Below the pieces are notes generated by a model. That model did no database searches, was not told where the DNA came from, and saw only the letters and a program-made list of their open reading frames with translations. Below, in pieces: positions 6,522-19,914 of a stretch of DNA of 43,537 bases. Source of the DNA: a virus. How positions within the stretch are numbered: the stretch's first letter is position 1; every line of letters begins with the position of its first letter. The translations under genes and the position numbers were made by a program. Location: IMG/VR virus record IMGVR_UViG_3300031539_000091, positions 1-43,537 of that record; one strand, written 5' to 3'.

Positions 6522-6529
6522 AATAAATA
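6522..6529 (+). promoter_or_regulatory. T4-type late promoter candidate (AATAAATA)
   Basis: Ends 4 nt before the ATG of the plus-strand gene at 6534, which has no Shine-Dalgarno site. It fits the late cassette that begins here, although initiation at normal distance would fall on the start codon itself. Confidence 0.4.
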
Positions 6530-6533
6530 CATA

Positions 6534-7238
6534 ATGAGATTATTTGAATTTACCAGAACTTTGGCTGAGGGCGGGAACGTTTTTAAGGGCGATCTTGCTA
6601 CCCAAAGGATTCTAAAAGCAGACGTTTTACCAACAGTAAATTGGTTAGAGCGTATTTTGGGCATGGCGCTCAAAAATAACCTATTAGGCAGCACAGGTAA
6701 GAAGCCAGATTCCGGAGATATTGATATTGGTTTGCAACAAGACACAGTATCAAAAGATGATCTGTTCCAAAAACTAAGGAAATGGGCAGCGGATAACAAA
6801 CTCCGCCCCGAGGACTATGTTAGGAAAACGGGAACCAGTGTACACTTTAGAACTCCGATTGCTGGCGATCCTAATAGAGGATTTGTGCAAACAGATTTAA
6901 TGATACTGCCCGATATGAAGTTTGCACAGTTTTTCATGTCGCCCGATCCTAATTCAACTTTTAAAGATGCACAGAAACATATACTGCTAGCAAGTATTGC
7001 CAAGCATGGCGGCCTACGTTGGTCACCAACAGTTGGTTTAACGTCTAGGACTACGGGCAACGTTATTGCTAACGAACCAGAACATATTGCGGAAATGTTA
7101 TTAGGACCAAACGCTTCGGCGCAGGATTTAACCTCAGTTGAAAGAATACTAAAGACGTTAGAGAATGATCCAGAGAGAGAAGCTAAGATAAGCGACGCAA
7201 AGAAAACATTAGGATTATTAGGGTCAGATGAGATTTAA
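6534..7238 (+). CDS. Nucleotidyltransferase-fold protein with putative head-targeting peptide
   Basis: 234 aa. A Pol-beta-type nucleotidyltransferase signature is visible: LGSTGKK (GS at 52-53), GDIDIG (D62, D64) and a third acidic residue in VQTDLMI (D121). Such enzymes transfer NMP to a nucleic acid, protein or small molecule; the acceptor here is unknown. The N-terminus MRLFEFTRTLAE|GG contains L-A-E followed by Gly at 10-13, matching the (L/I)-x-E cleavage rule of T4 prohead protease gp21 on capsid-targeted proteins. I infer the protein may be packaged and injected. It is first of three overlapping plus-strand genes. Confidence 0.75.
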   Translation: MRLFEFTRTLAEGGNVFKGDLATQRILKADVLPTVNWLERILGMALKNNLLGSTGKKPDSGDIDIGLQQDTVSKDDLFQKLRKWAADNKLRPEDYVRKTGTSVHFRTPIAGDPNRGFVQTDLMILPDMKFAQFFMSPDPNSTFKDAQKHILLASIAKHGGLRWSPTVGLTSRTTGNVIANEPEHIAEMLLGPNASAQDLTSVERILKTLENDPEREAKISDAKKTLGLLGSDEI

Positions 7239-7452
7239 CGAAGTGAAATTACATGCTCCGTATCCAACAAGGCGTTCGGAATTCGCAAAGGCAGGAGATA
7301 GCGTAATGTCTGTCATCGGCGGAATGCGTGGCGAAGTGGTGCGTGTCATTACTACTGCTGGCTCAATTCCTTACGCTCTTGTAAAATGGGAAAATGGTCA
7401 CACTGGGCGAGTTACAATCACTAGCATTGCGAGAGTAAACAATGAGATATAA
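7228..7452 (+). CDS. Small SH3-like beta-barrel protein, 74 aa
   Basis: Starts MRFNEVKLHAPYPTRR, overlapping the upstream gene by 11 nt. The core GEVVRVITTAGSIPYALVKW followed by ENGHTGRVTITSI is a strand-turn-strand pattern like KOW or SH3-type nucleic-acid or protein-binding domains. Its MR-x-x-E start resembles the two neighbouring genes (MRLFEF, MRYKEI). Function unknown. Confidence 0.65.
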   Translation: MRFNEVKLHAPYPTRRSEFAKAGDSVMSVIGGMRGEVVRVITTAGSIPYALVKWENGHTGRVTITSIARVNNEI

Positions 7453-7804
7453 AGAAATAGTTACTGAGATGGTTCACATTCCTATAAGTCCCAGAGGAAG
7501 GGCAACAGTTCCTGCTCCTGCCGTATTGTATCATTCACTCAGAAGACGTCCTGCTAGTATAACAGGAATCCAAGCATATCCGTTGTCGGATAAGGAAAAT
7601 GAATTAGCGTTTATGTTTCCTGAAGAAAAAAGACAGAATGGTTTTATTTGGTTGAGTATAGGCGCGTTATCGAATGATGCTTATCAAATTGACGCACATA
7701 AATTAGATTCTACTAATCTACGGTACACAGGACAAAGCGAAGGATATTTGATACATGCCGGAGACATTCCTGCGGAAGCAATTATTACTAAGCTTAACTA
7801 TTAG
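7442..7804 (+). CDS. Hypothetical protein, 120 aa, possibly ART-like
   Basis: Starts MRYKEIVTEMVHIPISPRG and overlaps its upstream neighbour by 11 nt. The order AVLYHSL near the N-terminus, IWLSIG in the middle and YLIHAGDIPAEAI near the C-terminus recalls compact ADP-ribosyltransferase-fold proteins (LYH start and an IPxxxI end), but the catalytic pattern is incomplete by eye. V-T-E at 7-9 is a poor match to the prohead cleavage rule. It ends convergently with the kinase gene, overlapping by 11 nt. Confidence 0.6.
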   Translation: MRYKEIVTEMVHIPISPRGRATVPAPAVLYHSLRRRPASITGIQAYPLSDKENELAFMFPEEKRQNGFIWLSIGALSNDAYQIDAHKLDSTNLRYTGQSEGYLIHAGDIPAEAIITKLNY

Positions 7805-8447
7805 CCCTGTTAGCTAGTTCGTTTTGTATCCAAGCCGTTGCTGCTGGCTGAGTTGGCTTTTTACTAAGAAATTGTTCTAAACGTTTTGCAACTATTTGTA
7901 CATTAGCGCCAGCATTGGAATTATCAACAATAAAGAAATTACCACCAAACTCATTCTGCAATTGACCCAAGTTATCTTGCGTCACTTTCCAATTCTGTTT
8001 TACTCGATCCAATGGAACACTTCTTCCGATTTCTTTTGCTCTAGCTTGCATTCGTTGTATAGCAGTATCTAAGTCAGTATTAACAAATATCATCGCAGTA
8101 TCATAACCAATTTTTTCAAGTACACGTTTTGTTTTTTCAATACGTCGAAGATCCTTTGCAGTACCATCAATTACCATTCCTAGTCGTCCGGCAATATAGT
8201 TCTTTCGCTGCGCCATATTCTTGCGCCAATAATAATCGTAATCTTTTGTTGAATCTTTTTTGAGATTATTGAAGAATTCCCACCATTTATCAATATCTAA
8301 CTCTTTAAGTCCTGTATGTGCTAGAAGCTTTTTTCTAACAGTCGTCTTACCTGCTCCAGGCGCGCCGGCCATAAAAATAGCCTTAAAAATATGAGGATCA
8401 TATACACCTTCTTCTATTGGTTGGTTTATAACTTCAAAGCATTTCAT
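7794..8447 (-). CDS. P-loop kinase (polynucleotide-kinase or zeta-toxin like) with putative head-targeting peptide
   Basis: 217 aa. The Walker A motif GAPGAGKTT is at 28-36, followed by DIDKWW, a strand MVIDGTAKD that may carry the acidic Walker B position, and a basic lid segment (QRMQARAKEIGRSV). This layout fits AAA_33-type kinases including zeta toxins and PNK-like enzymes; the substrate cannot be told. The N-terminus MKCFEVINQPIEE|GV holds I-E-E then Gly at 11-14, again the gp21-type cleavage rule. The ATG is 7 nt after a perfect TATAAATA on the minus strand, with no ribosome site. Confidence 0.8.
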   Translation of the reverse strand: MKCFEVINQPIEEGVYDPHIFKAIFMAGAPGAGKTTVRKKLLAHTGLKELDIDKWWEFFNNLKKDSTKDYDYYWRKNMAQRKNYIAGRLGMVIDGTAKDLRRIEKTKRVLEKIGYDTAMIFVNTDLDTAIQRMQARAKEIGRSVPLDRVKQNWKVTQDNLGQLQNEFGGNFFIVDNSNAGANVQIVAKRLEQFLSKKPTQPAATAWIQNELANRANS

Positions 8448-8454
8448 GTAGTAG

Positions 8455-8466
8455 TATTTATAAATA
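8455..8466. promoter_or_regulatory. Divergent overlapping T4-type late promoters
   Basis: The palindrome TATTTATAAATA contains TATAAATA on both strands (plus 8459-8466, minus 8455-8462). Each copy is followed by exactly 7 nt and then an ATG (8474 plus, 8447 minus). TATAAATA is the exact T4 gp55 late consensus. Confidence 0.75.
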
Positions 8467-8473
8467 CACTGTT

Positions 8474-9616
8474 ATGACCGATAAGACCATACAAGAAGCT
8501 CCTCCGACAGACTTAAAACCTGGTAAACGTAAGGTATTAAGAAAATCGGATCCAAACGAAGATGCAGGAAATGAGTTTGAGGAGAAATTTGGGGCAATTT
8601 TACGAAAAAATTGTAAGTTATCTGTAGCGACTTTTAAAAAAATAGGGAAGTATTTGTATCGGGGATCCAGAGATCACGGAGTGGCGTATATGGGGCGTTC
8701 GACAAATAAAAGAAGGGCGTCAGATACACCAGATTTTGTACAGGATAATTTAAATCAATTATTCTTAAAAGCCGGATATAAAGCAGTTAGAGGTAATAGT
8801 ATTTTTACTTCTGGGAACGAGAACGTAGCGGCGGACTACGGTGATGTATATATTATATTTCCTGTTGATGGATTTAATTTTACTTGGTCATCAAAGATAG
8901 CAGATTTATTCTCGTATTACGACCGCGGAGGATTTCTAACTGGATTTGATCTAGCGCAAAATACTAGAAAATATACCAAAATAAATGATTCCTTTGTAAG
9001 ACAATTAGAAAAGGCCGCTTCAAATAACAGTAGTCAACTCGGTTATTTTCACGAACACATATTATATGATGATAATGGATTTACAGGTAAAACACCACTT
9101 CAAATTAAAATAAGCAGAATGCTTAGTAAATGGCAAGGAGAATATGCCGTAGAGTTCGACAAACTCTTTATTGATCCGTATAATTCTTCTCCGGATTTTA
9201 CCCTTGCAGAAGAATTATTTAGAATTAGAAAATATCATATTAAAAAGGAAACAATTTTATACACTGAGTTAGTTAAAGAGGCTATCGAATTAACAAAGTT
9301 TGATAAAACAAATAATGTATTTGATAACAAAGGCCGACAGCAACTATCTAAAATAATTGCTAAGTCGATTTCTATAATTAAAATGTTAAAAGAATATGAC
9401 AAATTGACTTTTAGAATTTTTAAGGAAATATCTAAAAAACCCACGTCTAATGTATCCGCAGAATCCTTAGAAAAATTAGGATTTATGAATAATAAAAATT
9501 TTGCATGGGCAATTGCATCTAAAAATGAAATATATATAAACGGTTTATATTATGCATTTGATATTGATACATACTACAAAGCAATTCGTTCCTGGCTTAA
9601 AAAGTTAAATAAATAA
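8474..9616 (+). CDS. ADP-ribosyltransferase-like protein, possibly injected
   Basis: 380 aa. Residues fit the R-S-E pattern of arginine-type ADP-ribosyltransferases: R63 in YLYRGSRD, S-x-x-T-S in NSIFTSGN (109-113) followed by AADYG, and an acidic C-terminal element SKNEIYING with E about 352. T4 Alt, also an ADP-ribosyltransferase, is packaged, processed by gp21 and injected to modify host RNA polymerase. Here the N-terminus MTDKTIQE|APP has I-Q-E then Ala at 6-9, a matching cleavage site. I infer an Alt-like host-takeover enzyme. The second Glu of an ExE motif is not evident (K-N-E). Transcribed from the divergent late promoter. Confidence 0.65.
   Translation: MTDKTIQEAPPTDLKPGKRKVLRKSDPNEDAGNEFEEKFGAILRKNCKLSVATFKKIGKYLYRGSRDHGVAYMGRSTNKRRASDTPDFVQDNLNQLFLKAGYKAVRGNSIFTSGNENVAADYGDVYIIFPVDGFNFTWSSKIADLFSYYDRGGFLTGFDLAQNTRKYTKINDSFVRQLEKAASNNSSQLGYFHEHILYDDNGFTGKTPLQIKISRMLSKWQGEYAVEFDKLFIDPYNSSPDFTLAEELFRIRKYHIKKETILYTELVKEAIELTKFDKTNNVFDNKGRQQLSKIIAKSISIIKMLKEYDKLTFRIFKEISKKPTSNVSAESLEKLGFMNNKNFAWAIASKNEIYINGLYYAFDIDTYYKAIRSWLKKLNK
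9608..9615 (+). promoter_or_regulatory. T4-type late promoter candidate (AATAAATA)
   Basis: Overlaps the last codons and stop of the ADP-ribosyltransferase-like gene and ends 4 nt before the ATG of the radical SAM gene at 9620. Confidence 0.35.
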
Positions 9617-9619
9617 TCA

Positions 9620-11563
9620 ATGAAACTAATAAGCTTCTCGCAACCAAACTTCCAACAAGGACCGAAAGAATTTAACGCATACTACCTTCCGTACAGCGCA
9701 GGCGTGCTTTGGTCGTATGTTAAATCGTTCCCACACATCAACGAGAATTACAAATTACTAAATTACATCTGGAAGAGAGACGCACTAGATAAATCCTTAG
9801 ATCTTATTAAGGACAGTGACGTCGCATGTTTCAGTACCTATGTGTGGAACAAAAGCTATAATTACACTTTAGCCAAGAGGATGAAGGACTTAAAACCAGA
9901 ATGTCTTATTGTGTTCGGTGGTCCCGAACCTCCCATTACCGATCCTGAATTTTTCAAAACGTTTCCGTACATTGATATAATGGTAAAGTCGGAAGGTGAG
10001 AAAACATTCCTCAAAATATTAGAGTCTACAAGCTTAGAAGAATTAAGACAGGTACCGGGGTTATTGTTAAACATTGATGGCGAAACGGTTGATACAGGAA
10101 ACCCGGATAGAATTAACAACTTGGAAGAAGTTCCTAGTCCTTATCTAACAGGATTGTTTGACGACTTAATGGCCGCCCACCCAGAAGTAGAGTGGAACAT
10201 GACACTAGAAACAAATAGAGGTTGTCCTTACCAATGTACATTCTGTGACTGGGGTAGTTTAACATATAACAAGGTTAAGAAATTTGAACTTGATCGTGTC
10301 AATGATGAGATCGAATGGGCAGGTAAAAACAAGTGCGGGTTTATTTCCATTACAGATGCAAACTTTGGCATATTCCCGGATAGGGATAATTTGATTGCTG
10401 ATAAGATAATAGAAGTACAGACGAACTATGGTTACCCAAATACGTTTAGCACTGCTTGGGCAAAGAACCAGAAACAAGAAGTGGTGGATATTGTTAAGAA
10501 ACTTATACATTCACCACGTGGATTTAATCAGGGCTTAACACTGTCAGTTCAAAGCTTAGACTTAGACGTTTTAGAGAATATCAAGCGAAAAAACTTAGAA
10601 ATTAGCAAGATCGAAGAAGTTTTTGACATTTGTGATAAAGAAAATATTCCAATCTACACTGAAATTATCCTAGGATTACCGGGAGAAACACTAGCAACTT
10701 GGAAACAAAACTTTTGGAAGCTATTCAATTCTGGAAATCACACCGGAGTAACAGTGTTTCAAGCTCAAATGCTAGAAAATGCGGAGATGAACTTATTACA
10801 GAAGAAACTCTATAAGATCACTGACCAAATGGTTTATGACTATATGAGCGGCAGCTATAACGAGGATGAATTGAAGGAAGGGATCAAAGTTATTACATCA
10901 ACAAAGGATATGTCATTCGACGAGATGCTAGAAGCACAGATCTTTAGCTGGTATATAAACACGTTTCATATAAACGGATTGACTACATACATTAGTAGAT
11001 TTTTAAAGAAGTTTCGCAATATTGAATACTCGGATTTCTACGAAAAGCTGTTTGAATACGTTAAGCAGGATTCATGGATTGCTGAAGAGATAGAAGAAGT
11101 AGGTAGTTACTATCGTCGTTGGATGACCACTGGACAAATTGACCATCCTATTATCGGAAATATAGAAATACATGGATGGAATTTAATCCATAGGTCAGTA
11201 ATACGAATACATGCTGATAACAAATATGATCATATATTTAATATGGTAGAAGACTTTATTAATAAAGAATACGACTTAGATGAAGGTAATTGGGATAGCT
11301 GCCCTGACGACATCCTCGAGCAGTTAATGAAATTTCAGCGCAACTATTTAATCAACTACCACGATATTCCAAACTATCCTAAGGTATTAACATTCGATTA
11401 TGATTTCTTAGGATACTTGCAAGACGATGCTAACATCAGAGATCAAGTGCAGTACACTTTCGACTTCAATGAAGACAAGACAATGAGTTTCCCGCGCTTC
11501 TTGGACAATATCTATTTTTATAGAAGAAGGAACTTTGGGAAAGCTTGGATTACGAAAATTTAA
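9620..11563 (+). CDS. B12-binding-domain radical SAM enzyme, 647 aa
   Basis: The first ~140 residues have a Rossmann-like B12-binding fold (VACFSTYVWNKSYNYTLAK, then VFGGPEPP). The radical SAM cluster motif GCPYQCTFCDWG supplies C202, C206 and C209 for a [4Fe-4S] cluster. SAM-domain features include ITDANFGIF, LSVQSLDLDVL and EIILGLPGET. The C-terminal ~200 residues are unassigned. Family members use SAM and often cobalamin to methylate or rearrange unactivated carbons. The classical DxHxxG cobalamin ligand is not visible, as in BchE-like members. It immediately follows the ADP-ribosyltransferase-like gene. The substrate is unknown. Confidence 0.88.
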   Translation: MKLISFSQPNFQQGPKEFNAYYLPYSAGVLWSYVKSFPHINENYKLLNYIWKRDALDKSLDLIKDSDVACFSTYVWNKSYNYTLAKRMKDLKPECLIVFGGPEPPITDPEFFKTFPYIDIMVKSEGEKTFLKILESTSLEELRQVPGLLLNIDGETVDTGNPDRINNLEEVPSPYLTGLFDDLMAAHPEVEWNMTLETNRGCPYQCTFCDWGSLTYNKVKKFELDRVNDEIEWAGKNKCGFISITDANFGIFPDRDNLIADKIIEVQTNYGYPNTFSTAWAKNQKQEVVDIVKKLIHSPRGFNQGLTLSVQSLDLDVLENIKRKNLEISKIEEVFDICDKENIPIYTEIILGLPGETLATWKQNFWKLFNSGNHTGVTVFQAQMLENAEMNLLQKKLYKITDQMVYDYMSGSYNEDELKEGIKVITSTKDMSFDEMLEAQIFSWYINTFHINGLTTYISRFLKKFRNIEYSDFYEKLFEYVKQDSWIAEEIEEVGSYYRRWMTTGQIDHPIIGNIEIHGWNLIHRSVIRIHADNKYDHIFNMVEDFINKEYDLDEGNWDSCPDDILEQLMKFQRNYLINYHDIPNYPKVLTFDYDFLGYLQDDANIRDQVQYTFDFNEDKTMSFPRFLDNIYFYRRRNFGKAWITKI

Positions 11564-16764: not shown

Positions 16765-16777
16765 TAAGTCGTTGATT
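16765..16777 (+). repeat. Recurring motif copy 7 (TAAGTCGTTGATT)
   Basis: Perfect match to the consensus. It sits between the stop of the PP-loop gene (16776) and the -35 box of the HAD-like gene. Confidence 0.65.
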
Positions 16778-17684
16778 AGTTAAAGTATTCTGTATTATGC
16801 TGCGGGCCGTCTAGTTGATAGACGCGCTGGCTTAAAGTATTGTTTACTTTCAAGAGGTTACAGTATTCGTCCAACGGAATTAAAACAATGTTGTCCTTGG
16901 CGTACAGCTTATGCCAAAATGTTAGCTTTTCCGAGCCAGCATACTTAGGAAAATATAATAAGTGGTCCTTCCAAAGATGGGCATATTGCAATGGTTTTAC
17001 ATACACTTCGCAAGCCCACAACGACTTAACTTTTGTACCTTTACGTTGCAATCCGTTGTTGTCTAAATAATTCCAGCTTCTAACCATGCTGCTAAAGAAA
17101 GGGTCGGTTAAGTAACTTAACATCACTTCATTTGTGAATAAGAAATTATAGCTTAGTCTGCCGGTGCCTTCTACTGCTCGCTTTCTACCAATGTCAGGAT
17201 CGAAATAGCTATGTAAGATATAGGGCTTTCCGTCCTTAACACAAAAGTTAGGCTGCGCCAATCCTTGTACTACATTCCTACCCTCAGGAAGCTTACTGCA
17301 AAAATACGCATGAATGGCATGGGCAGGATTAATATCTAGCTCGACGGATAGTTGGTCAACAGCTTTTCTGATCTTAGTTGCATCTTCGGTATAAACAGTT
17401 ACTCTGTTGCCAAACTTCTTCTGCACTGCCCTAACGTTTTCATACTCGTTGTCATTAAAGCCAGGCATGTGGAAAAACACAGACTCGATGCCTATGCCCT
17501 GAGAAAGGAAACTATGTAAAATAACTTGGGAGTCTAGTCCTGCGCTAAGGGCAAGGAGAAGATTACTATCTAATGCATGTAATCTTCTTGCCTCAATCTT
17601 AACTTCTTCTTTTAAACTTCTAACTTCCCTGGAACAACCATTTACTTCTACATAGAATTTGTTATCGTCAAATCCAAATTTCAT
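16776..17684 (-). CDS. PP-loop ATPase, asparagine-synthetase-like, 302 aa
   Basis: SAGLDSQV at 46-53 is a PP-loop variant (SGGxDS), following a strand LLLAL. PP-loop enzymes adenylate a carboxyl or carbonyl group before amidation, thiolation or peptide-like bond formation. VFFHMPGFNDNEYENVRAVQ and FGNRVTVY fit the N-type ATP pyrophosphatase fold of AsnB-like enzymes. The glutaminase domain of true asparagine synthetase is missing, so nitrogen or another nucleophile must come from elsewhere. It overlaps the stop codon of the DctP-like gene upstream by one base. A second PP-loop gene lies at 18649-19914. Confidence 0.75.
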   Translation of the reverse strand: MKFGFDDNKFYVEVNGCSREVRSLKEEVKIEARRLHALDSNLLLALSAGLDSQVILHSFLSQGIGIESVFFHMPGFNDNEYENVRAVQKKFGNRVTVYTEDATKIRKAVDQLSVELDINPAHAIHAYFCSKLPEGRNVVQGLAQPNFCVKDGKPYILHSYFDPDIGRKRAVEGTGRLSYNFLFTNEVMLSYLTDPFFSSMVRSWNYLDNNGLQRKGTKVKSLWACEVYVKPLQYAHLWKDHLLYFPKYAGSEKLTFWHKLYAKDNIVLIPLDEYCNLLKVNNTLSQRVYQLDGPQHNTEYFN

Positions 17685-18625
17685 TACTGAAGTCTAATCT
17701 TAGTAACTAAATCGGTTGAGAAATAATTCTTATATAACTCATAGACCGATTCGGTCATTTGCTTAAATTTTTCAACTTCGGCTTCGGGTAAATCAACAAT
17801 GTCGATATCGTCTTTCTTGCAACGTTCTTGTACTAATAGGATATCTTCAAGGCTAATTGCGCGTTCATATCTAGCTGCGTTTTCTGCGGCTGCTTGGATC
17901 TTATCCTGCTGTTCTTTAGTTAAGTCACCCCAAAAATCGGTGTTGACAATAATTGAAGTAAGGAATAAACTATGCTTGGTGTCGTTAATGTATGCACAGG
18001 CTTCATTCTGCTTTAGTGCATAAAAACGTGGATATGTACTTTCACCACCAGTAATCTCACCTTTCTTAACAGCATAGGTAATCTGCTCTAATTCCATTAC
18101 AACTGGTTCTGCCCCAACTGCTTTTAAAATATCAATAGCAACTGGACTTCTATTAGAGCGAACTTTTAGTCCTTTAAAATCTTCAACAGTTTTAATTTCT
18201 TTAGTAGCCGGGATCATTCTATATCCGCCACTATATGTAAAAGCTAATCCTTTTATGTGGCTGTCCTTGCCAAGACCGTTTAACAATCCTTTACCGATCT
18301 CACCGTCTAAAACTCTTGCAGCGTGTTGGTGGTCTCTAAACAAGAATGGAAGATCCAATACATGCATGTCCTTCGAATATCTTTCACCTAGCCAAACAGT
18401 GTACATCTGGCTCATTTCAATTTCACCCGATTCCATTAAGTCTAATAGATCGTGCTTCGTAACTTGTTTACCGTCGTGGTATTTGTCGCCATACTCACTT
18501 AAGGTCATAATCTCAAATTCCATGACCCCTGGCATCGTTACACTTAGCTCTTCAACAAACTTTAGTGCTGCCCGTAGGAATAATTCAATCGGCTCGTGCG
18601 CCAGCACCCATCTAATTTTTTTCAT
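17684..18625 (-). CDS. TRAP-type solute-binding protein (DctP-like) without signal peptide
   Basis: 313 aa. Strong DctP/TRAP features: DLPFLFRDHQHAARVLDGEI, a turn FTYSGGYRMI, GLKVRSNRSPVAIDILKAVG then EPVVMELEQI, and GGESTYPRFYALK. In the family the Arg in this VR segment contacts the substrate carboxylate. Normal members are exported to the periplasm. This one starts directly at the mature-like MKKIRWVLAHEP, so it should stay cytoplasmic. Lying between two PP-loop genes, it could deliver or sequester a carboxylate for them (inference). Strong ribosome site AGGAGG. AATAAATA lies upstream. Confidence 0.85.
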   Translation of the reverse strand: MKKIRWVLAHEPIELFLRAALKFVEELSVTMPGVMEFEIMTLSEYGDKYHDGKQVTKHDLLDLMESGEIEMSQMYTVWLGERYSKDMHVLDLPFLFRDHQHAARVLDGEIGKGLLNGLGKDSHIKGLAFTYSGGYRMIPATKEIKTVEDFKGLKVRSNRSPVAIDILKAVGAEPVVMELEQITYAVKKGEITGGESTYPRFYALKQNEACAYINDTKHSLFLTSIIVNTDFWGDLTKEQQDKIQAAAENAARYERAISLEDILLVQERCKKDDIDIVDLPEAEVEKFKQMTESVYELYKNYFSTDLVTKIRLQ

Positions 18626-18648
18626 AATGTTTCCTCCTAACTTGTTAG

Positions 18649-19914
18649 TTATTTATTACTCCAGTCAATTTTATAATTTTTTAGTCCTTTTAGAATAAAA
18701 TCACGCACTTCTTCATTGTCTACAGTTAATAATTTAAAATCCGAATCCACCCCAAATATCTTCTCTATCTTCAAGTTTTTAAAGTTCTTCACATACAGGT
18801 TCCTAAGCGACGGAATCTTTAGCTTGTAATTCAACGCCCAACTGTTTTTATCAAAATTGTATATATACTTTCGTGCTGCCCATTTGTACCTAGGCTGCGT
18901 TAACCCATTAAGCTTTTGACCATTGTTGTTATTCACCATGCTCCATTTTTGGTAATCATCGGTACCGAACCAATTAAATACCCGTTCCTTAATTCCTTCT
19001 TTCATCTTATCCTCTGTTCCGTAGTATACAGAGGATCGAATTGCACAATGCATATATTTGATGTTGAAAATCAACCACCAAAAGAAATCGTGTAAACTGT
19101 GCACCGGAACATGACTAGTGTTAATGTTCTTTACAATCTTATCGTAATATAGCCGACCAAACGTTTGGTTGTAGCTAAATTCTTTGTATGCCGACTTGCT
19201 AAAGTAATGCACTAACAAATCTTCATACTTGGAATAATGAACATCTTCGTTTGTGATTCCGTTGTATAAGTGCTTGAGCTTGCTTTTTGCTTCCGGATTC
19301 ATTTCGTTAATTAACTCGTAAAACTTTGAATACATTTTTGTACCGAACTCAGTACCAAATAAACTATCTCCTTGGTCTAGTGTGATAGGAATTGTATCAC
19401 TGCTTTCGTTAATTATGTCGCTGTAAAATGTGGTGTTTGAATCCAACAATGTAAATTTGTCTTTAATATACTTCTCAAAAAACATTGGGTTTTCTATTAG
19501 CGAGTCGTAGCTTAACACCAGGCGCACTGATTTTAGTTCTTTGTCGCTTAGGTTTTTTAGAAGAGAAGTAACACAGACGGTACTATCAATTCCACCCGAA
19601 TAAAATACTACTATATTCTTGCCCTCATTAATTAGCTTCTTCGTCTTTATGCCTGTAAGATCTGTTATCTCACTAAACGATAGATTAAAGTTCTTATCAT
19701 ATGTGGGCATTTCGTAGCCTGGAATTATTGTTGTTGGCCAAGGTAGGCTCCACTCTCCGTCCCTAGGTATTAGCATATTATCGGATATTAACCTAGCAAT
19801 CATAGTGTGGAATTTACCGCCGTCGCTAAAGTCTTTGAAATTTGTTTTTAGAAATTCTTGATGAGGAACCCAACCATAACAAATTGAATGGAAGTATAAC
19901 GGTAGCTTAATCAT
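18649..19914 (-). CDS. PP-loop ATPase, asparagine-synthetase-like, 421 aa
   Basis: IVVFYSGGIDSTVCVTSLLK gives a canonical PP-loop (SGGIDS at 106-111). The N-terminal ~95 residues are not a recognisable glutaminase domain, lacking the Cys2 nucleophile. Later segments (GLTQPRYKWAARKYIYNFDK) parallel the GLAQPNF segment of the 16776 protein, showing the two are related. It overlaps the upstream gene by 8 nt. Probable carboxylate-activating enzyme of an unknown small product or protein modification. Confidence 0.75.
   Translation of the reverse strand: MIKLPLYFHSICYGWVPHQEFLKTNFKDFSDGGKFHTMIARLISDNMLIPRDGEWSLPWPTTIIPGYEMPTYDKNFNLSFSEITDLTGIKTKKLINEGKNIVVFYSGGIDSTVCVTSLLKNLSDKELKSVRLVLSYDSLIENPMFFEKYIKDKFTLLDSNTTFYSDIINESSDTIPITLDQGDSLFGTEFGTKMYSKFYELINEMNPEAKSKLKHLYNGITNEDVHYSKYEDLLVHYFSKSAYKEFSYNQTFGRLYYDKIVKNINTSHVPVHSLHDFFWWLIFNIKYMHCAIRSSVYYGTEDKMKEGIKERVFNWFGTDDYQKWSMVNNNNGQKLNGLTQPRYKWAARKYIYNFDKNSWALNYKLKIPSLRNLYVKNFKNLKIEKIFGVDSDFKLLTVDNEEVRDFILKGLKNYKIDWSNK
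18650..18657 (-). promoter_or_regulatory. T4-type late promoter candidate (AATAAATA)
   Basis: Overlaps the stop of the 18649-19914 gene and precedes the DctP-like gene, followed by an AGGAGG ribosome site and the ATG at 18625. Confidence 0.4.

Follow-up and report, generated by a model that had tools for sequence, protein, structure and literature searches.

Putative capsid-targeting peptides on a cassette of enzymes in a T4-type phage

Background

Is a cassette of enzymes on the IMG/VR virus record IMGVR_UViG_3300031539_000091 destined for the phage head and for injection into the host? The record, 43,537 bases long and recovered from an environmental metagenome, is part of the genome of a T4-type phage; this whole fragment is called the window here. 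The cassette comprises, in this order, genes for a nucleotidyltransferase, a 74-aa protein, a 120-aa protein, a kinase on the minus strand and an ADP-ribosyltransferase-like (ART-like) protein, followed by a radical-SAM protein. The initial annotation had read the N-termini of the nucleotidyltransferase, the kinase and the ART-like protein as peptides cut by a gp21-type prohead protease, and the three enzymes as cargo injected with the DNA.

Phage T4 offers two models. Its internal proteins IPI, IPII and IPIII resemble the cassette in that unrelated proteins of one genome begin with a short peptide whose last residues are (L/I)-x-E and which is followed by a small residue. The first 10 residues of the T4 capsid-targeting sequence (CTS) are enough for head targeting (PMC9026906). 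The T4 internal proteins are small and basic, whereas the cassette cargo would be enzymes with a tag sequence that varies by lineage. T4 Alt has a gp21-type N-terminal site, as has the ART-like protein, which would likewise be a candidate for injection with the DNA; Alt is an ADP-ribosyltransferase, whereas the ART-like family has no detectable relationship to a curated profile of these enzymes. The comparisons reported below lead us to regard the cassette, with a probability of roughly 0.62, as encoding effectors that a myovirus of the T4 superfamily packages inside its head and injects.

Results and discussion

The three N-terminal sites were present within the first 14 residues, as had been claimed: MRLFEFTRTLAE/GGNVFKG in the nucleotidyltransferase, MKCFEVINQPIEE/GVYDPHIFKA in the kinase and MTDKTIQE/APPTD in the ART-like protein (the slash marks the candidate cut). 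Four of the 77 first-ATG open reading frames (ORFs) of the window had an [LI]xE[AGS] site, three of them being these cassette genes. The base rate of the site in residues 2-15 was 2.7 % of the internal methionines of the window; the chance of three sites among five consecutive genes is then ~2e-4, or 2e-3 at a rate of 6 %. The cassette sites are real and non-random. An additional tagged protein had been overlooked: the 120-aa protein begins with MRYKEIVTE/MVHIP (VTE/M, in the syntenic relative L002 LSE/M), which is in sequence the cassette start most like a T4 targeting peptide. Both small genes between nucleotidyltransferase and kinase start with M-R-x-x-E-hydrophobic (MRFNEV; MRYKEIVTE). The stop/start overlap DNA, GATGAGATTTAA and AATGAGATATAA at about 7226 and 7440, accounts for part of the common MR start; as its entire cause the overlap was rejected, since it accounts for the two small genes only. 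Comparative tests were adopted because LxE before a small residue is weak for a single protein (about 3 %). Taken by itself, the window had no two protein starts that reached the threshold of the pair test, so the case rests on relatives. The suggested search for the same peptides on other proteins brought up the 120-aa protein, but no significant pair in the window.

The relative L002 had the same genes with clearer starts: MRLREIISE/GGNAF in the nucleotidyltransferase, MRLKEILSE/MVHIP in the 120-aa protein (83 % identical to that of the window), MRYSDLKEEQIEE/GVHDPHIF in the kinase and MKVDDIILQE/APSNG in the ART-like protein. With the pattern of the first census, only these four of its 46 ORFs were tagged, and MRLREIISE and MRLKEILSE stand on unrelated protein bodies. 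The ART-like tag of the window (MTDKTIQE) is degenerate, and canonical in the L002 ortholog and other relatives; of the IQE/A tag noted before, the site stood, but its canonical form is confined to relatives. No counterpart of the 74-aa protein was found in L002; this protein had a sub-threshold, weak similarity to DUF1918 / phrog_4808. The place matching the 120-aa protein is occupied in contig L189 by a YHGT-type protein, MLITELLNE/S..LYHGT, and that L189 protein alone was weakly KptA-like.

Further relatives showed shared peptides in a dialect peculiar to each genome. In the Agrobacterium jumbo phage Atu_ph07 (dialect M[RK]WxQLTE) the proteins of an ART-like array start with MRWEQLTE, MKWHQLTE and similar peptides, and unrelated proteins with MRLIDLLE and MRLFQLLE. 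A regular expression found 27 tagged ORFs, 2.0 being expected from internal methionines. By column permutation, 16.6 N-terminal pairs sharing five of eight residues were expected (permuted maximum 26), whereas 75 were observed; a control region gave 18 versus 11.4 expected. Paralogs of the ART-like protein add to this excess, yet 51 of the 75 pairs had no common downstream 5-mer. Genome G021 yielded 23 pairs versus 2.2 expected (maximum 5), a count to which ordinary MKKI leader-type starts and closely related paralogs contribute. The kinase and the ART-like paralogs of this genome begin with MNFKRFLTE, MNFKSFITE, MDFKSFITE and MDFKSFVNE (dialect M[ND]FK[SR]F[LIV]xE). In genome G013 (dialect M-ENWR-FLxE) the nucleotidyltransferase start MKLIMETWRKFVAE (METWRKFVAE/GG) is similar to the starts of other proteins (MKQLMENWRGYLSE, MKKLINEWRDFLTE; MENWRGYLSE, NEWRDFLTE, KNWKTYLNE). 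As judged from these sequences, non-homologous proteins of one phage share a peptide in L002, Atu_ph07, G013 and G021. Tags of different families were more alike within genomes (13.2) than between them (7.9; permutation p = 0.02, hand-made genome set), and such genome-specific likeness is the pattern expected if the peptide docks on a core that is particular to each phage.

Contig L056 (6567-16590; Atu_ph07 39.5-49.5 kb) has about ten tandem ART-like paralogs, all with M[RK]Wxx L-x-E tags; in the last of them the kinase and two more domains are fused on. L292 and neighbouring pieces of G021 carry another array, in which at least six ART-like paralogs have starts of the M[ND]FK type; some of these genes and gp21 are a few kb apart. 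Several unrelated proteins on L088, L093, L096 and L099 (genomes G012 and G013) have a distinct peptide in common, MKITKxxLKxIIxEE.

The kinase was assigned to the Zeta-toxin/AAA_33 P-loop kinases by profiles above their cut-offs (PF06414, Zeta_toxin, 1.9e-14, 54.0 bits vs 22.3; AAA_33, 42.7 vs 27) and matched phrog_12810 (4.7e-52). Its homologs on other viral contigs start with MKTFQDFIQE/G, MKTYQDIRE/G, MKTFxELQE/G and others, and the proven CTS of T4 IPIII, MKTYQEFIAE/A, is nearly identical to some of them. Among 58 kinase N-termini, with P3, P2 and P1 before and P1' after the candidate cut, P3 was L, I, M or V in 58/58 and P2 one of 11 different residues; P1 was E and P1' G in 58/58, values partly biased, as P3 is not, because EG formed part of one of the two search patterns. 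The upstream peptides differ in length and sequence, yet P3 and P1 are kept. The kinase and 120-aa tags are the best supported of the four cassette tags.

The nucleotidyltransferase had no Pfam match. Its catalytic motif GSTG..SGDIDI (alignment A5) contains GS...DxD, the AlphaFold2 model (predicted local distance difference test, pLDDT, 89) has a palm fold and the Foldseek search with the model retrieved DNA polymerase lambda/beta (E 5e-5); by motif, model and structural match the protein belongs to the Pol-beta superfamily. Only residues 1-12 and 231-234 had a pLDDT below 50, and order begins at G13. The stretch (L/I/V)AEGGNVFK is near-invariant across the family, even at residue 2 or internally at about residue 235. 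The LAE/G site, counted before as a processing site, is therefore confounded: the whole family keeps the motif, tag or no tag, and it was dropped as an independent argument. From the starts in L002 and G013 a tag on the nucleotidyltransferase is plausible.

These motifs are the basis of one alternative, that there is no tag: LAEGG and EEG would be intrinsic to the nucleotidyltransferase and kinase domains, and the similar starts would be small-sample chance plus the start/stop overlap bias (ATGAGATWTAA). The near-invariant family motif speaks for it, as do the overlapping DNA behind the MR of the two small genes and the kinase EG, which is retained in internal fusions and may for that reason belong to the domain itself. 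We nevertheless consider it improbable. It would leave the genome-specific dialects on unrelated proteins of several genomes to chance, and the kinase peptides vary while P3 and P1 stay; residues 1-12 of the nucleotidyltransferase lie outside the modelled fold, and the nucleotidyltransferases of Atu_ph07 and Phosso lack LAE altogether.

The ART-like protein matched phrog_11975 (1.1e-27). Residues R63, R80, R106 and E352 were invariant in alignments A1 and A6, in A1 also S109; YRG and the region of S109 are conserved. ADP-ribosyltransferases of the R-S-E class have R, S-x-S and E as catalytic motifs. No Pfam, NCBIfam or PDB profile matched, so that no curated ADP-ribosyltransferase profile or solved structure fits; a single-sequence search retrieved no relatives, and the AlphaFold2 model from seven sequences (pLDDT 42) was unusable. 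In an hhalign comparison with 123 T4 proteins ModB ranked first, with a probability of only 8 %. The earlier name ADP-ribosyltransferase is suggested by the conserved R and E residues and stays at this motif level, because profile and structure matches are missing.

A gp21-like protease had been named as a check on packaging. Neither the window nor L002, both of them fragments, contained gp21 or a recognised head gene, but a gp21-family protease (PF03420, S77) was present in many relatives: Atu_ph07, Phosso, Melnitz, HTVC008M, T4, G011-G013, G018, G019 and G021. In G018 tagged ART-like genes directly follow the major capsid gene in the same operon as gp21 and gp22. In G021 a tagged ART-like gene has large-terminase-like and sheath-like genes on either side (identifications from sequence reading and gene position), and G019 has gp21 and the same divergent kinase/ART-like pair, with tagged nucleotidyltransferase-family and other proteins. 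A tag-like start, MKLTELFNPLTE/S, is also seen on a small phrog_13986 protein encoded between the portal and gp21 genes, the gene order of T4 gp67.

In Atu_ph07, 29 of the 46 proteins of coding sequences (CDS) 31-76 were found in virions by mass spectrometry (PMC6102473). The ART-kinase fusion (gp53), the array (gp54-62) and the nucleotidyltransferase (gp65) lie inside this cluster, a placement at the level of the cluster, not protein by protein; gp2, gp4, gp5, gp18 and gp70 served as checks on the gene numbers. The cluster holds the same kinase, ART-like and nucleotidyltransferase families as the cassette, but differs in its tandem array, its fusion and its untagged nucleotidyltransferase. 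Effectors encoded near head genes, polyvalent proteins and head-packaged ADP-ribosyltransferases among them, have been predicted by comparative genomics to be packaged (PMC9503650). The Atu_ph07 fusion is of that style; polyvalent proteins are fused to MuF or portal domains, whereas most of the proteins here are unfused and have individual short tags.

A shared peptide could also serve docking or localisation at a target outside the head, such as a replication or transcription complex, and not be cut by gp21. In HTVC008M the kinase tag is poor (MIPFILKE) and its gene lies among replication genes; the P1' residues vary, and short common N-terminal peptides alone do not reveal their binding partner. 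This explanation is unlikely in our view, since hydrophobic P3, variable P2 and E at P1 follow the rule of gp21, the peptides resemble the T4 CTS, capsid, protease and sheath genes adjoin tagged genes, and the Atu_ph07 families fall in the virion cluster.

Late-type promoters had been described before the cassette genes. Over the window TATAAATA was not enriched (4 found vs 5.0 expected), so only the position of the octamer relative to start codons is informative. In both the window and L002 the nucleotidyltransferase, kinase, ART-like and radical-SAM genes have [TA]ATAAATA at a distance of 4 or 7 nt upstream of their ATG, without a Shine-Dalgarno sequence, and the palindromic arrangement between kinase and ART-like gene is repeated in L002; the promoter claim is favoured by these positions, but not by an abundance of the motif. 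A rough Fisher test on the octamer position gave 7e-6, with the counts for other ORFs rounded by hand and the test made after the pattern was seen. The octamer also abuts the ART-like start codon in G018, and it lies 5 nt from the start in several further homologs of the kinase. WATAAATA octamers 4, 5 or 7 nt before starts without a Shine-Dalgarno sequence were seen in the window, L002, L187 (7956), L218, L222, L228, L251 and L260. Octamers that close to the starts suggest near-leaderless late mRNAs in such phages. Kinases, nucleotidyltransferases and ADP-ribosyltransferases are common in early regions of phages, and the cassette might encode host-takeover enzymes of the usual kind, synthesised by the infected cell in the early or middle phase and not packaged. 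This is very improbable given the late gene neighbourhoods in relatives, the virion cluster of Atu_ph07 and the signal of TATAAATA type that adjoins the start codons.

Besides the missing gp21 in the window and L002 and the points named for the alternatives, several observations weigh against packaged effectors. The tag patterns were composed after the window, T4 and L002 had been seen. On some contigs in which gp21 was not detected, the nucleotidyltransferases retain LAEGG untagged (MLAEGG, MKLAEGG), and those of Atu_ph07 and Phosso start with MGG, without any tag. Many kinase homologs have a Shine-Dalgarno sequence and no late promoter, and the kinase gene of HTVC008M adjoins UvsX and primase, not late genes. 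In Atu_ph07 P1' is often not A, G or S (K, N, D, H). A T4-like targeting peptide on unrelated enzymes is favoured by the dialects, the likeness of kinase tags to the T4 CTS, gp21 and head genes in relatives and the Atu_ph07 virion cluster. The injected cassette of the initial annotation is partly supported and probably right in kind; cleavage, packaging and injection are the part of it that we infer.

The cassette genes would be read late from TATAAATA-type promoters abutting their start codons. The N-terminal peptide of about 8-13 residues, whose sharing is seen, would dock on the prohead core in the dialect of the phage. A gp21-type protease may then cut after (L/I)-x-E, as site conservation suggests, and leave the mature enzyme free inside the head. 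By analogy to T4 Alt and IPI-III, the kinase, nucleotidyltransferase, ART-like and 120-aa proteins would exit from the head together with the DNA and, early in infection, act on molecules of the host; the phage probably delivers the three enzymes in this way.

The features are collected in Table 1. The radical-SAM gene also adjoins the cassette in L002. Elsewhere in the window, at 16776-19914, two proteins are weakly similar to QueC/ThiI/PAPS-reductase types.

Table 1 Coordinates of the cassette features in the window and of the phrog_13986 protein in related contigs
Feature	Position	Strand	Remarks
Late-promoter-like AATAAATA	6522..6529	+	4 nt before nucleotidyltransferase ATG
Nucleotidyltransferase, Pol-beta superfamily, 234 aa	6534..7238	+	candidate targeting peptide MRLFEFTRTLAE/G, residues 1-12
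Candidate capsid-targeting peptide codons, nucleotidyltransferase	6534..6569	+	sequence; disordered in model up to E12
74-aa protein, MRFNEVKLH...	7228..7452	+	M-R-x-x-E-hydrophobic start, no LxE site
120-aa protein	7442..7804	+	candidate tag MRYKEIVTE/M, continuing MVHIP
P-loop kinase, Zeta-toxin/AAA_33 class, 217 aa	7794..8447	-	candidate tag MKCFEVINQPIEE/G
Candidate capsid-targeting peptide codons, kinase	8409..8447	-	sequence; 58 related N-termini
Palindromic TATTTATAAATA, T4-late-like TATAAATA on each strand	8455..8466	both	7 nt from kinase ATG, 7 nt from ART-like ATG
ART-like protein, phrog_11975 family, 380 aa	8474..9616	+	candidate tag MTDKTIQE/A (L002: MKVDDIILQE/A)
Radical-SAM/B12-binding protein	9620..11563	+	PF04055 3.3e-12; upstream AATAAATA; untagged
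phrog_13986 protein	L073 1850-2098; L162 17360-17602; L187 3452-3703

Conclusions

Beyond this locus, we tentatively propose, at somewhat less than even odds, that capsid-targeting peptides may be a general address system of T4-superfamily phages with lineage-specific dialects, in which effector modules (kinase, Pol-beta-type nucleotidyltransferase, ART-like arrays) are swapped between phages and re-tagged. Head-injected enzymes with near-leaderless late promoters would then be a large class, for the most part still without annotation, and recognisable from sequence alone. The T4 tag has already been used to load foreign proteins into phage heads, and the dialects would add natural, lineage-specific packaging tags for this use. 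If the reading as injected effectors is right, injection of a phage protein can be recognised from its first 8-14 residues, and for jumbo and marine T4-like phages many proteins of unknown function become testable as head-packaged effectors. Candidate enzymes of the first minutes of infection would then be named: a P-loop kinase, a Pol-beta-type nucleotidyltransferase and ART-like arrays.

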